32,587 nucleotides of DNA from Terriglobia bacterium (lineage in GTDB: Bacteria > Acidobacteriota > Terriglobia > Acidiferrales > UBA7541). The stretch spans positions 40,964 to 73,550 of the forward strand of contig JAIQGC010000039.1 of NCBI GenBank assembly GCA_020072805.1, read 5' to 3'. A program made the position numbers and the translations under genes. Every line of letters starts with the position of its first letter. Position 1 is the first letter of the stretch. Below are positions 15,511 through 18,914 of the stretch, in pieces. The notes below the pieces were generated by a model. That model saw only the letters and a list, made by a program, of their open reading frames with translations, did not search any database and was not told the origin of the DNA.

Positions 15511-16293
15511 CTAGCGATACTCCCCGTCAATCTGCTGGATTTCGCCTTTTTCATCGAAAGCCGCCTCGAACATCTTGTGCCGGCGCACCACGATCGTGCC
15601 GAACTGCTTGTCCTGCGCCAGAACCACCGCCTGCAGCTTGACCATCTCCAGCACCGCCAGAAACGCCACGATCATGGCGTGCCGCGAAGGGCAAGCCTCG
15701 AAAAATTCAATCAGGTTCACTTCCGGCACGTCATTGGCCAAAATCCGCGCGCGCAATTGCGCCACCATCTGCGCCACGGTGAACTGGTCGTGCTTCAGCT
15801 CGATCCGCGAAACTTCCCGCCGCCGCTCCAGCACCTGCTGAAACACCTTGACCAAATCCACCAGCGACACCACCAGATCGCCTTCCGTCTCTTCGTCGTT
15901 GTAGAGCGACTTGTCCGGCTTCGACCACACGTGCTCTTCGATCTGCTGCTTCTGATAGAGCAATTGCGCCGCGTTCTTGAATTTCTCGTGCTCCACCAGC
16001 CGCTGCACCAATTCCGCGCGCGGATCTCCGGCCATCTCCTCCGGCGAAGCCAGCGGGTCCGGCGGCAGCAGCATCTTCGATTTGATATAGATCAGCGTCG
16101 CCGCCATGTACACAAAGTCCGCCGAAACGTCCACATTGAGCGCTTCCAGCTTGTGGATGTATTCCAGATACTGCGCGGTGATCTTGGCGATGGGAATGTC
16201 GTGGATATTGATCTCCTGCTTCTTGATCAAATCCAGCAGCAGATCCAGCGGACCTTCATACATCGCAATCTGAATGTTATACGGCGATGCCAT
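15511..16293 (-). CDS. scpA: Segregation and condensation protein A (kleisin)
   Basis: ScpA bridges the SMC heads and binds ScpB in the bacterial condensin. The 260-residue protein has the N-terminal kleisin motif MYEGPLDLLLDLIKKQEINI, then DIPIAKITAQYLEYI and ADFVYMAATLIYIKSKMLLP. The C-terminal winged helix includes FLAVLEMVKLQAVVLAQ. ATG 16293 has GGAAAG upstream at about 12 bases. A 25-base palindromic repeat lies 15-39 bases upstream of the start, in the gap after trpS. Confidence 0.95.
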   Translation of the reverse strand: MASPYNIQIAMYEGPLDLLLDLIKKQEINIHDIPIAKITAQYLEYIHKLEALNVDVSADFVYMAATLIYIKSKMLLPPDPLASPEEMAGDPRAELVQRLVEHEKFKNAAQLLYQKQQIEEHVWSKPDKSLYNDEETEGDLVVSLVDLVKVFQQVLERRREVSRIELKHDQFTVAQMVAQLRARILANDVPEVNLIEFFEACPSRHAMIVAFLAVLEMVKLQAVVLAQDKQFGTIVVRRHKMFEAAFDEKGEIQQIDGEYR

Positions 16294-16376: not shown

Positions 16377-17675
16377 TTACTCTTTCTCCGCCACTTCTTT
16401 CCTCTTCCTCCCCCACCCAAAAACCGCCTCCCTCACCCTCTCCATCGTCCCCTGCGCTACTTTACGCGCTTTTCCCGACCCGGCGTCCAAAATCTCCAGT
16501 ACTCGCCCGGGATGCGCCTCGTACTCCTTGCGCCGCGCCCGCACCGGCTCGATCCACGTAATCAGATGATCCGCCATCTTCGCCTTGCACTCGATGCACC
16601 CGATCCCCGCAGTCCGGCACCCCGCCGCCGCCCACTCCAGCGTCTCCTTGCTGGAAAACAGTTTGTGCCAATCGTAAGCCGGACACTTCTCCGGATCGCC
16701 TACGTCGGTGCGCCGCTTCCTCGCCGGGTCCGTCACCATCACCTTCGTCTTCGCCCGGATGTCCGCGTCGCTCTCGCTCAGCGAGATGAAGTTGCCGTAG
16801 CTCTTGGACATTTTTCGGCCGTCAGTACCAGGAATACGCGGAGTCTTGGTTAGTATTTCCTGTGGCGGAGTCAAAACCGCTTTAAGAGCTATAAATTTTT
16901 CGGCCGCTCTGTTTTCCTGTACCCAAGGCACAAACCTTTCATAGAAATTGACAAGCCCCCCCTCCATCGCGGCCTTTCTGATGTCCCCGGCCATTCTTTC
17001 AATAGCGACCTGCGATGGAACTGAGACCTGCGAAAAGGCGCTAGCCTTCCCACGAAAAGTTTCCCACATGATCTGTACCGCCATAGCGTTCTCAGGTTTG
17101 CTCATCTCGGCAGTATCGATGCTCATTCCAAAATGAAAGTTAAACTTGCGCACGATTTCACGGCTGAGTTCCACATGAGCCACTTGGTCCTCTCCCACCG
17201 GCACAACCAGCGGCAACCCTTCCGCGCCATAAATAATGATGTCCGCGGTTTGCAGCGTGGGATAGCCAAGGAAACCATAAGTATGCAAATCCTTGTCCTT
17301 GATGTTGTCGAGCTGCTCCTTGTACGTCGGCACGCGCTCCAGCCATCCCAGCGGCGTCACCATCGACAGCAGCAAATGCAGCTCCGCATGCTCCGGCACC
17401 TGCGACTGCACGAACAGCACGGCCTTTTCCGGGTCCAGTCCCGCCGCCAGCCAGTCCGTGGCGATTTCAATGGTGCTCTGCGCCACGCCCGAAGGGTCGG
17501 CGTAGTCGGTGGTCAGCGCATGCCAGTCGGCCACAAAGTAGAAGCAGTCGTAGCCAGGATCATTCTGCAGGCGCACCCAATTCTCCAGCGCCCCAAAGTA
17601 ATGCCCAATGTGCAGCCTCCCCGTCGGCCGCATCCCGCTCAGCACCCGCTTCTTCTTAGTCTCTTCAGCCGCCAT
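16377..17675 (-). CDS. trpS: Tryptophanyl-tRNA synthetase, iron-sulfur type with a large in-frame insertion
   Basis: TrpRS charges tRNA-Trp using ATP. This class I enzyme has HIGH as HIGH (22-25) in GRLHIGHYFG and KMSKS at 288-292 in GRKMSKSYGN, with PVGEDQVAHVELSREI between. At 432 residues it is about 90 longer than the common bacterial form of about 330-350. The excess is a block at roughly 184-271, between RKFNFHFG and TKTPRIPG, where typical enzymes have under ten residues. The C-terminal domain holds Cys331, Cys353, Cys360 and Cys363, spaced C-x21-C-x6-C-x2-C. That is close to the iron-sulfur motif described for Thermotoga maritima TrpRS. ATG 17675 was chosen because AAGGA lies 7 bases ahead; a TTG two codons earlier is possible. 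Confidence 0.93.
   Translation of the reverse strand: MAAEETKKKRVLSGMRPTGRLHIGHYFGALENWVRLQNDPGYDCFYFVADWHALTTDYADPSGVAQSTIEIATDWLAAGLDPEKAVLFVQSQVPEHAELHLLLSMVTPLGWLERVPTYKEQLDNIKDKDLHTYGFLGYPTLQTADIIIYGAEGLPLVVPVGEDQVAHVELSREIVRKFNFHFGMSIDTAEMSKPENAMAVQIMWETFRGKASAFSQVSVPSQVAIERMAGDIRKAAMEGGLVNFYERFVPWVQENRAAEKFIALKAVLTPPQEILTKTPRIPGTDGRKMSKSYGNFISLSESDADIRAKTKVMVTDPARKRRTDVGDPEKCPAYDWHKLFSSKETLEWAAAGCRTAGIGCIECKAKMADHLITWIEPVRARRKEYEAHPGRVLEILDAGSGKARKVAQGTMERVREAVFGWGRKRKEVAEKE
16863..17126 (-). other. Low-GC in-frame insertion segment within trpS
   Basis: This stretch encodes about residues 184-271 of TrpRS. Counting bases 16861-17160 by hand gives 147 G+C of 300 (49%), against about 62-68% in sample lines elsewhere in the same gene. 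It contains less preferred codons and no stop. The encoded peptide begins MSIDTAEMSKPENAM and ends FIALKAVLTPP; I recognise no domain. The edges are approximate and were judged against the usual TrpRS pattern. Confidence 0.65.
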
Positions 17676-17750: not shown

Positions 17751-18914
17751 CTAGTCCCTGCCCTGCGTTCCACTCTTCTCCAGCAGGTCCCGGGCGATGA
17801 TGATCCTCTGAATCTCGCTGGTGCCCTCATAAATGGAAACCACCCGCGCGTCGCGGTACATGCGTTCGACGTCCATCTCCCGCGAATAGCCGATGCTGCC
17901 GTGAATCTGTACCGCCTTATACACCACGCGGTTGACCATTTCGCTGGCGTAGAGCTTCGCCCGGCTAGCCTGCGAGCCCATGCGCCCGCCAGAATCCTTC
18001 AGCCAAGCCGCGTAGTGGGTCAGTCCGCGCGCGGCTTCGATCTCCGTCTGCATGTCCGCCAGCATCCACTGAATAGCCTGGAACTCGCCGATGGTCTTTC
18101 CAAAGGCGCGGCGTTGCTTGGCGTGCTTCACGGACTCTTCCAGCGCGCCCTGGGCGATGCCCACGGAAAGCGCGGCAATGCCCAGCCTTCCGCCATCGAG
18201 CGCGCTGAGCGCGATTTTCAGTCCCTGGCCTTCTTCCCCGAGAAGATTTTCGGCAGGAACCACGCAGTCCGTGAGAATAATTTCCGTCGCCGGAGAAGCC
18301 CGCTGGCCCATTTTCTCTTCGTGCCGGCCCACGCGAAAGCCGGGAAATCCAGGTTCCACCAGAAACGCGGAGATTCCCTTCCCGCCCGCCTGCGCATCGG
18401 TCTTGGCAAACACCAGATACATCCCCACGTGGTCGCCGCTGGTCACCCAGGTCTTCGTTCCGTTCAGCTTGTAAACATTTCCTTGGCGCACGGCCGTGGC
18501 CTGAATCGCGGCGGCGTCCGAACCGGCCTGCGCTTCGGTCAGGCTAAAGGCTCCGATGATTTCACCCGAAGCCAGGCGGGTAAGATATTTTTTCTTTTGC
18601 GCCGGAGTGCCGAAAGCAAGCAGGGGCAGATTCACCGCGGAGTTGGTCACACTCAGGGTTACCGCCGTGGAAGCGTCCACGCGCCCCACTTCTTCCAGCA
18701 TGAGCACGTAGGAAACCGTGTCCATGCCCGCTCCGCTCCACTCTTCGGGGACCAACATGCCGCAGCAGCCCATTTCGCCCAGCTTACGGATTTGCGCCTC
18801 CGGATAGCGAGCCAGGCGGTCGTTTTCCTTCACCAGCGGGCGCATCTCCGTTTCCATGAATTGGCGGACAGTCTCACGAATCAGTTTTTGGTGGTCTTTG
18901 AGCGAGAAATCCAT
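17751..18914 (-). CDS. Acyl-CoA dehydrogenase (short/medium-chain type)
   Basis: A 387-residue FAD enzyme that oxidises acyl-CoA to enoyl-CoA, passing electrons to ETF. Domain order is normal: helical N-domain, beta-domain with AFSLTEAQAGSDAAA and the flavin-contact region WVTSGDHVGMYLVFAKT, then C-domain with QIHGSIGYSREMDVERMYRDAR. The catalytic base is Glu363 in IYEGTSEIQR, the position used by short-chain and butyryl-CoA dehydrogenases. No etfAB or other beta-oxidation gene is adjacent, so the chain length is open. The start codon has no visible Shine-Dalgarno site. A 25-base palindromic repeat sits only 11 bases upstream of it. Confidence 0.92.
   Translation of the reverse strand: MDFSLKDHQKLIRETVRQFMETEMRPLVKENDRLARYPEAQIRKLGEMGCCGMLVPEEWSGAGMDTVSYVLMLEEVGRVDASTAVTLSVTNSAVNLPLLAFGTPAQKKKYLTRLASGEIIGAFSLTEAQAGSDAAAIQATAVRQGNVYKLNGTKTWVTSGDHVGMYLVFAKTDAQAGGKGISAFLVEPGFPGFRVGRHEEKMGQRASPATEIILTDCVVPAENLLGEEGQGLKIALSALDGGRLGIAALSVGIAQGALEESVKHAKQRRAFGKTIGEFQAIQWMLADMQTEIEAARGLTHYAAWLKDSGGRMGSQASRAKLYASEMVNRVVYKAVQIHGSIGYSREMDVERMYRDARVVSIYEGTSEIQRIIIARDLLEKSGTQGRD

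Follow-up and report, generated by a model that had tools for sequence, protein, structure and literature searches.

We give about even chances to the reading that an insert in the tryptophanyl-tRNA synthetase (TrpRS) of Gp2-type Acidobacteria is a polymorphic, recombining module that is probably kept diverse by an antagonist, a driver which we infer from the pattern of diversity. Many anciently diverged versions of the insert are spread over species and genera, and the synthetase core follows the genera. The insert, which sits after the last Rossmann helix and ahead of the residues that run up to the KMSKS motif, is swapped as a unit and in frame, and exchange would proceed by homologous recombination through conserved flanks among trpS alleles. 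Negative frequency-dependent selection could then act: if an attacker of TrpRS near the KMSKS loop recognizes the common types, carriers of rare ones would be spared. HipT-like kinases and a phage or secreted toxin protein are candidate attackers, and the insert itself is probably dispensable for tRNA charging. The enzyme at the center of this analysis is encoded in the window, by which we mean the whole 32,587-nucleotide stretch of acidobacterial DNA that was analyzed.

An in-frame insert in the window's tryptophanyl-tRNA synthetase

The trpS gene, its motifs and its neighbours are located as follows.

16377–17675, minus strand: trpS (ATG at 17675, stop at 16377–16379, 432 aa), tryptophanyl-tRNA synthetase with a [4Fe-4S]-type cysteine motif
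17601–17612, minus strand: HIGH motif, residues 22–25, from the translation; His22 and Gly24 invariant in the alignment
16869–17135, minus strand: hypervariable insert domain, residues 181–269 (89 residues), from multiple alignments, structure models and G+C
16947–16958, minus strand: G-x-x-N of the insert, residues 240–243; Gly60 and Asn63 (window-insert numbering) each in at least 90% of 72 inserts
16800–16814, minus strand: KMSKS, residues 288–292, invariant in a 39-sequence alignment
16587–16685, minus strand: four cysteines (331, 353, 360, 363; C-x21-C-x6-C-x2-C), a TmTrpRS-type [4Fe-4S] site motif, invariant in 39 aligned sequences
15541–16293, minus strand: scpA, downstream neighbour (PF02616, E 1.1e-30)
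17751–18914, minus strand: acyl-CoA dehydrogenase, upstream neighbour (PF00441, E 2.5e-52)

Both neighbours are ordinary genes. The enzyme is a class I TrpRS, with HIGH, KMSKS and a PF00579 domain (E 2.8e-58 in the Pfam search), and it scored 255.5 bits against TIGR00233, whose cut-off is 176.75. It contains the cysteine motif C-x(21-24)-C-x6-C-x2-C, given for the [4Fe-4S] site of Thermotoga maritima TrpRS (TmTrpRS) in the available portion of PMC2954223, and by this motif we class it as a [4Fe-4S]-type TrpRS with a putative cluster. Its top-scoring NCBIfam model was NF008922 (PRK12283) at 484.2 bits, under the curated equivalog cut-off of 572 bits, which none of the 299 genomes of the class reaches. 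The whole TrpRS matched no PADLOC family.

Alignment with T. maritima TrpRS (2g36) covered residues 9–182 and then 267–418 of the window enzyme (E 2.9e-102); at the insert site, 2g36 has 2 chain residues (after 181, before 184) and the window enzyme has 84. All PDB relatives listed for the window TrpRS are chains of at most 392 residues. The first-pass annotation had placed an in-frame insertion with an open frame before KMSKS, at 16863–17126 of this 432-residue enzyme, and our boundaries bear it out with a small shift. The low G+C content it had remarked on was also found: G+C is 0.500 in the insert (cut one codon longer) and 0.607 in the remainder of trpS, and at codon third positions (GC3) the values are 0.544 and 0.772. 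The insert ends 18 residues before KMSKS. With the TrpRS hinge at residues 182–186, as numbered in the portion of PMC2954223 consulted, we reckon from the 2g36 alignment that the entry point of the insert is some 12 residues ahead of the hinge that joins the Rossmann fold to the tRNA-binding domain.

Structure prediction was consistent with a separate domain, as had been proposed. A whole-enzyme model built from the 39-sequence alignment had a mean pLDDT of 86.4, with ten-residue blocks over residues 181–270 at 76–93. When the 89-residue insert was modelled alone from a 72-sequence alignment, pLDDT was 86.2 and pTM was 0.72, and the predicted product is a compact helical domain comprising a short strand, five helices and a second short strand. 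Leu88 (window-insert numbering) is invariant across the 72 Gp2-family inserts. The window insert matched no Pfam or NCBIfam family, in line with the earlier failure to recognize a domain, and PHROGs held no family for any of the 72 inserts. V-SNARE_C (0.0016) and POTRA (0.0025) each gave one weak match among these 72, and we took both as chance. In sequence searches of the PDB, no match was stronger than E 0.13 when the insert profile was the query or E 0.6 when the window insert was; Foldseek with the insert model found nothing below E 1.5 in the PDB or below 1.6 among viral models. VIA-align of the model with 20 chains gave no row at Z of at least 2. These fold comparisons do not show the fold to be new.

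Distribution of inserts at the site

We compared one genome per species; many of the Gp2-family genomes are probably metagenome bins. A TrpRS match was found in 77 of the 89 Gp2-family genomes, covering all 13 genera, and 12 genomes had no trpS match. Matches in G008, G025, G255 and G280 were fragments or broken frames and were kept out of the insert counts. The main alignment was made without L056 (a partial gene that has no long ORF), L045 (in which the motif was not found), L051–L053 (E. coli-type motifs) and L054 (broken frame), and removal of identical sequences then reduced the set from 190 to 184. L032 was held outside the insert alignments and comparisons and retained in the insert-type clustering and core tree; L055, cut at a contig end, was outside the core-insert correlation and nearest-neighbour counts; L057–L059 were outside the family groups for pair identity and dS counts; and loci L236 and L238–L240 were outside the comparisons.

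An insert of 64–106 residues is present in 72 of the 73 aligned Gp2-family trpS genes; the exception, L032, has 34. The first-pass annotation had suspected a recent gain, with close relatives expected to lack the block. Because the Gp2 family has the insert, in all 13 sampled genera, we reject a recent gain in the window's genome. The broader claim of a transferred or inserted domain stands in another form: the insert is predicted to fold alone and is AT-richer than its gene, and "transferred" would apply as repeated replacement. The statement that bacterial TrpRS typically has under ten residues at this site holds roughly for the 17 short forms from other families of the class (8–15 residues, but one with 25) and fails for 71 long forms, mostly Proteobacteria (beta/gamma), with 76–78 residues at the same site. 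These 71, the proteobacterial set, are best matches to a long-form query rather than a census, and they include a Planctomycetales record (L085) and a bacterial endosymbiont (L073). Some other acidobacterial TrpRS have 27–93 residues at the site.

Low G+C content is common for often-transferred genes. Insert G+C was below that of the core in 70 of 72 Gp2-family genes, 39 of 71 in the proteobacterial set and 16 of 19 other acidobacterial long forms. Mean GC3 in insert and core was 0.580 versus 0.743 in the Gp2 family (lower in 69 of 72), 0.724 versus 0.738 in the proteobacterial set (lower in 44 of 71) and 0.677 versus 0.773 in the 19 other acidobacterial long forms (lower in 15). Low G+C is thus shared across the family as a property of the replaced block rather than the mark of a single recent event.

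Added domains seem to have entered at this position repeatedly. The Gp2-family insert aligned by hhalign with probability 0.6% to 24 of the 71 proteobacterial inserts, bearing in mind that short helical sequences can diverge past detection, and with probability 0.5% to 16 other acidobacterial inserts. Such undetectably related inserts at one position in Proteobacteria, other Acidobacteria and the Gp2 family, together with lengths that run from 64 to 106 residues in the Gp2 family and fall to 34 in L032, are what one would expect of a tolerated, nearly neutral site, where a loop accepts foreign in-frame helical segments and recombination turns them over without selection for diversity. We regard this alternative as somewhat unlikely, for reasons that the comparisons below supply.

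Several other features of trpS in these genomes deserve mention. L032 (G036), with a 34-residue remnant where the congeneric L140 has 74 residues, is a natural near-loss of the insert. L151 and L179 (genus g30) are sister enzymes with inserts of 94 and 64 residues, the shorter being G+C-richer than its own gene. A second, smaller variable insertion follows the HIGH helix (core residue ~39) in 11 of the 73 Gp2-family TrpRS (L002, L014, L018, L020, L024, L027, L028, L057, L152, L168 and L173), where up to ~37 residues are added, many of them Ala, Gly, Pro or Gln. One genome carries a second, more distant TrpRS alongside the long form (G277:C122:1186-2151, an open frame of 335 aa). No TrpRS match was found in 5 of the 36 genomes of the window's genus (G002, G005, G007, G011 and G034), although three of these have a listed completeness of 93% or more; the assembly may, for instance, have broken at a polymorphic gene. 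An in-frame stop interrupts the trpS match of G029 (one TAA) and that of G238 (one TGA), through assembly error or because the copy is broken.

Divergent inserts in conserved cores

For the 406 pairs among 29 sequences of the window's genus, median identity was 0.79 in the core and 0.256 in the insert; shuffled inserts set the baseline at 0.192 (median) and 0.247 (95th percentile). In the proteobacterial set (2485 pairs) the core median was 0.69 and the insert median 0.56. The 19 other acidobacterial long forms (171 pairs) were intermediate and uneven: core 0.61 and insert 0.27 overall, with insert identity of ~0.5 at core identities of 0.65–0.85 and 0.39 at 0.85–0.90 (5 pairs). We counted 1186 pairs, some inside the genus and the rest among 40 further members of the family: insert identity was below 0.35 in 1120, 0.35–0.6 in 54 and above this in 12. 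The 12 of these pairs with core identities of at least 0.90 comprised 10 with insert identities of 0.21–0.32 and 2 that shared an insert (0.92 and 0.96).

Synonymous divergence gave the same picture. At core dS below 0.7, insert identity was less than 0.35 in 21 of 24 Gp2-family pairs versus 0 of 83 proteobacterial pairs (lowest 0.45). The discordant pairs of lowest core dS were L175/L178 (0.33), L158/L160 (0.39) and L005/L006 (0.47), with cores 93–96% identical and insert identities of 0.26–0.31. DNA identity of their inserts, compared with the mean (maximum) for codon-shuffled sequence, was 0.61 versus 0.56 (0.60), 0.56 versus 0.56 (0.59) and 0.58 versus 0.54 (0.58), respectively. Flanks of the three pairs were 85–100% identical per 20 codons, except for 73–76% beside the insert in L005/L006. 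By way of reference, L149/L150, with a core dS of 0.50 and a common insert type, had inserts 0.96 identical, and both this pair and the same-type pair L007/L009 aligned normally through the insert. In each of the 12 discordant pairs examined, DNA local alignments broke at most 26 bases from an edge of the insert. On these sequence comparisons the insert diverges as a block between conserved flanks, the signature of a putative polymorphic recombining module.

Recombination tracts might raise synonymous divergence close to the insert, and we looked for such a rise. Differences at four-fold sites near the insert and in the rest of the gene were 0.498 versus 0.460 in 168 discordant pairs and 0.477 versus 0.398 in 9 concordant pairs, with no excess in the discordant over the concordant, so this measure gives no direct view of tracts. 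Flank identity does drop beside the insert in some pairs (L005/L006, L137/L138 and L019/L028), which could reflect tract edges or co-variation. Outside the Gp2 family, L029/L031, from another family of the same order, had a core dS of 0.63 and an insert identity of 0.20, another possible replacement.

Insert and core histories

For an enzyme of core translation, one expects divergence to track descent. The Spearman correlation between core identity and insert score was 0.04 among 71 Gp2-family sequences versus 0.63 among the 71 mostly proteobacterial ones, and the nearest core was also the nearest insert for 6 of 71 versus 29 of 71. For 36 of 71 Gp2-family sequences the nearest insert lay in another genus, a count that includes weak best matches; at best scores of at least 90, the figure was 16 of 48. 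As an example, L159/L175 had a core identity of 0.78 and an insert score of 266, and L175/L178 had a core identity of 0.94 and an insert score of 39. By the thresholds used, 62 triples with 19 focal genes were reversed in this way, the more distant core having the closer insert. We thus ruled out gradual relaxed evolution, since inserts can be unalignable where core dS is low and can match better where the cores are more distant.

The core tree (73 sequences), built by a quick method and with 26 of 70 inner branches starred, reproduced the genera nearly perfectly, with 13 changes needed for the 13 genera (minimum 12). The 11 insert types required 20 changes on the same tree (minimum 10), a figure given without a shuffled control. 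Types were defined as single-linkage clusters at E below 1e-8 and covered 45 of the 73 sequences. Type counts understate the differences because single linkage joins dissimilar inserts (L158/L160 and L154/L155 are all T1). Four types crossed genera: T2 (g1, g25 and g29), T3 (g1 and g25), T4 (g23, g28 and g29) and T5 (g2, g27 and g31). By these insert scores and this core tree, the ancestry of the module is incongruent with that of the rest of trpS.

Within types, insert dN/dS was 0.02–0.46 in the 8 of 22 pairs for which it was computable, 6 of them among four g27 genes, so an individual type is under constraint. Median dN/dS in 114 close pairs of the proteobacterial set was 0.41 for the insert and 0.33 for the core. 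The three same-type cross-genus pairs compared had an insert dN of 0.50–0.55, and no recent cross-genus transfer was caught.

These data bear on the possibility of a tolerated, nearly neutral site. Unselected point mutation at core dS of 0.33–0.47 should have left recognizable similarity, and replacement would be needed to account for its loss. Retention of the domain in 72 of 73 genes, the conserved G-x-x-N and the confidently predicted fold are not expected of an indifferent loop; nor is dN/dS below 1 in all eight computable within-type pairs. Proteobacteria with an insert at the same position, moreover, show no such turnover.

Block diversity, old types that cross genera and constraint within types are what recognition by some other molecule usually leaves behind. 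That molecule could also come from the cell itself, as a polymorphic regulator or moonlighting protein to which the insert binds, with the two co-evolving and being transferred together. The first-pass annotation had suggested a new partner or regulatory contact, which is possible. Modular exchange with a common fold is typical of specificity domains, and the closeness of the insert to the hinge and to KMSKS would permit control of activity. We nevertheless consider a partner-specificity module improbable, since the DNA around trpS is largely collinear, gaps aside, in the pairs compared, and no other gene among those compared has such a block. Among 143 homologous ORF pairs from the trpS surroundings and further stretches of seven close genome pairs, a low-identity internal block with conserved flanks was found, by the thresholds used, in 6, and each of these was trpS; the remaining genome pair was L149/L150, with its common insert type. 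Another comparison, of 188 pairs with opposite-strand ORFs included, flagged six trpS ORFs and one plus-strand ORF of L199 (15853–17214), which we rejected as a shadow, as it overlies trpS on the opposite strand (L199 15892–17556). Elsewhere near trpS, L198 (G235) has an open frame of 275 aa just upstream of the gene, with no counterpart there in the close relative G113.

Source of new insert versions

A polymorphic module under antagonism, the reading we prefer, needs donors for its new versions. Neither a second copy of the insert DNA nor a template repeat was found in the window's own genome (157 contigs) at E up to 1, so the insert is single copy there. The insert profile, searched against the Gp2-family genomes, found trpS and four weak matches at E 0.013–0.036, and the window insert had no match among phage and plasmid records at E 0.01. 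Because the insert is single copy, its profile finds trpS and phage and plasmid records hold no match, the donors would most simply be other trpS alleles. The flanks carry no donor signature, which would fit exchange among close relatives with different types and hence a putative polymorphism inside species or species complexes.

Sharp insert edges and low G+C could instead have pointed to targeted hypermutation or a mobile cassette, with the insert rewritten by a diversity-generating retroelement, from silent donor cassettes or by a selfish element that stays in frame. We judge this very improbable: a retroelement target should have a template copy, and the own-genome search at E up to 1 found none; silent copies or donor cassettes were revealed neither by that search nor by the family-genome profile, its four weak matches aside; insert lengths differ; and the window insert is without a phage or plasmid match. 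An artefact of metagenome assembly or of alignment across a low-complexity loop is scarcely credible, for although many genomes are likely bins and assemblers can switch strains at a polymorphic block with conserved flanks, the inserts are in frame, share a common motif and recur in independent genomes, including G009 (10 contigs), and same-type pairs (L007/L009 and L149/L150) align normally.

Function and candidate antagonists

The insert is unlikely to be essential for tRNA charging because short forms have 8–25 residues at the site and L032 has only 34. In the portion of PMC6581861 available, the HipT kinase is described as phosphorylating Ser197 in the KMSKS motif of E. coli TrpS; the counterpart in the window enzyme is Ser290, which is invariant in the alignment. 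HipA_C kinases scored above cut-off in 27 of the 89 Gp2-family genomes, and the window's own genome (G000) had no HipA_C match. HipT is therefore a candidate only, and the distribution of HipA_C neither supports nor excludes it.

A bolder version of the antagonist reading is possible, and we offer it tentatively: the insert may be a TrpRS allotype of soil Acidobacteria, a trans-genus balanced polymorphism maintained by widespread antagonists (HipT-like kinases or proteins of phages and competitors) that bind beside the catalytic loop. If this were true, TrpRS would be an unrecognized front line of microbial conflict. The insert types would be ready baits for finding TrpRS recognizers in soil bacteria. 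A second lead would be the proteobacterial insert, which is conserved and occupies the same site.

Comparison with known systems

The best solved sequence relative of the window enzyme is TmTrpRS (2g36), which like it has HIGH, KMSKS and the four-cysteine motif. VIA-align of 2g36 with the model of the window enzyme gave Z 36.5 and an rmsd of 2.5 over 320 aligned residues, tied with 6ncr (Z 36.7). In contrast to the window enzyme, TmTrpRS has no insert at the site. E. coli-type TrpRS is without the insert and also aligns without it among the PDB chains compared. The long-form TrpRS of beta- and gammaproteobacteria resembles the Gp2 enzymes in having an insert of similar length (76–78 residues) at the same site; unlike that of Gp2, its insert is uniform in length, conserved in sequence and gene-like in G+C, and the two have no detectable homology.

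The nearest parallel to the proposed attack is E. coli TrpS and HipT, as far as the accessible portion of PMC6581861 describes it: there TrpRS is attacked at the KMSKS serine, and the Gp2 insert ends 18 residues before that motif. In the open-access portion of the literature we found no description of such a pattern, whether a hypervariable or an inserted domain, in TrpRS or other synthetases.

The Gp2 TrpRS thus presents a predicted folded domain near the catalytic KMSKS loop whose sequence is nearly uninformative about host ancestry. Diversity of this block-wise kind is normally a sign that something else recognizes the part concerned. The target recognition domains of HsdS in type I restriction and the hypervariable loops of BamA, a toxin receptor, are polymorphic modules exchanged within conserved proteins. 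HsdS, however, belongs to a defence enzyme and BamA is a surface protein, whereas the Gp2 TrpRS is an essential cytosolic tRNA synthetase.
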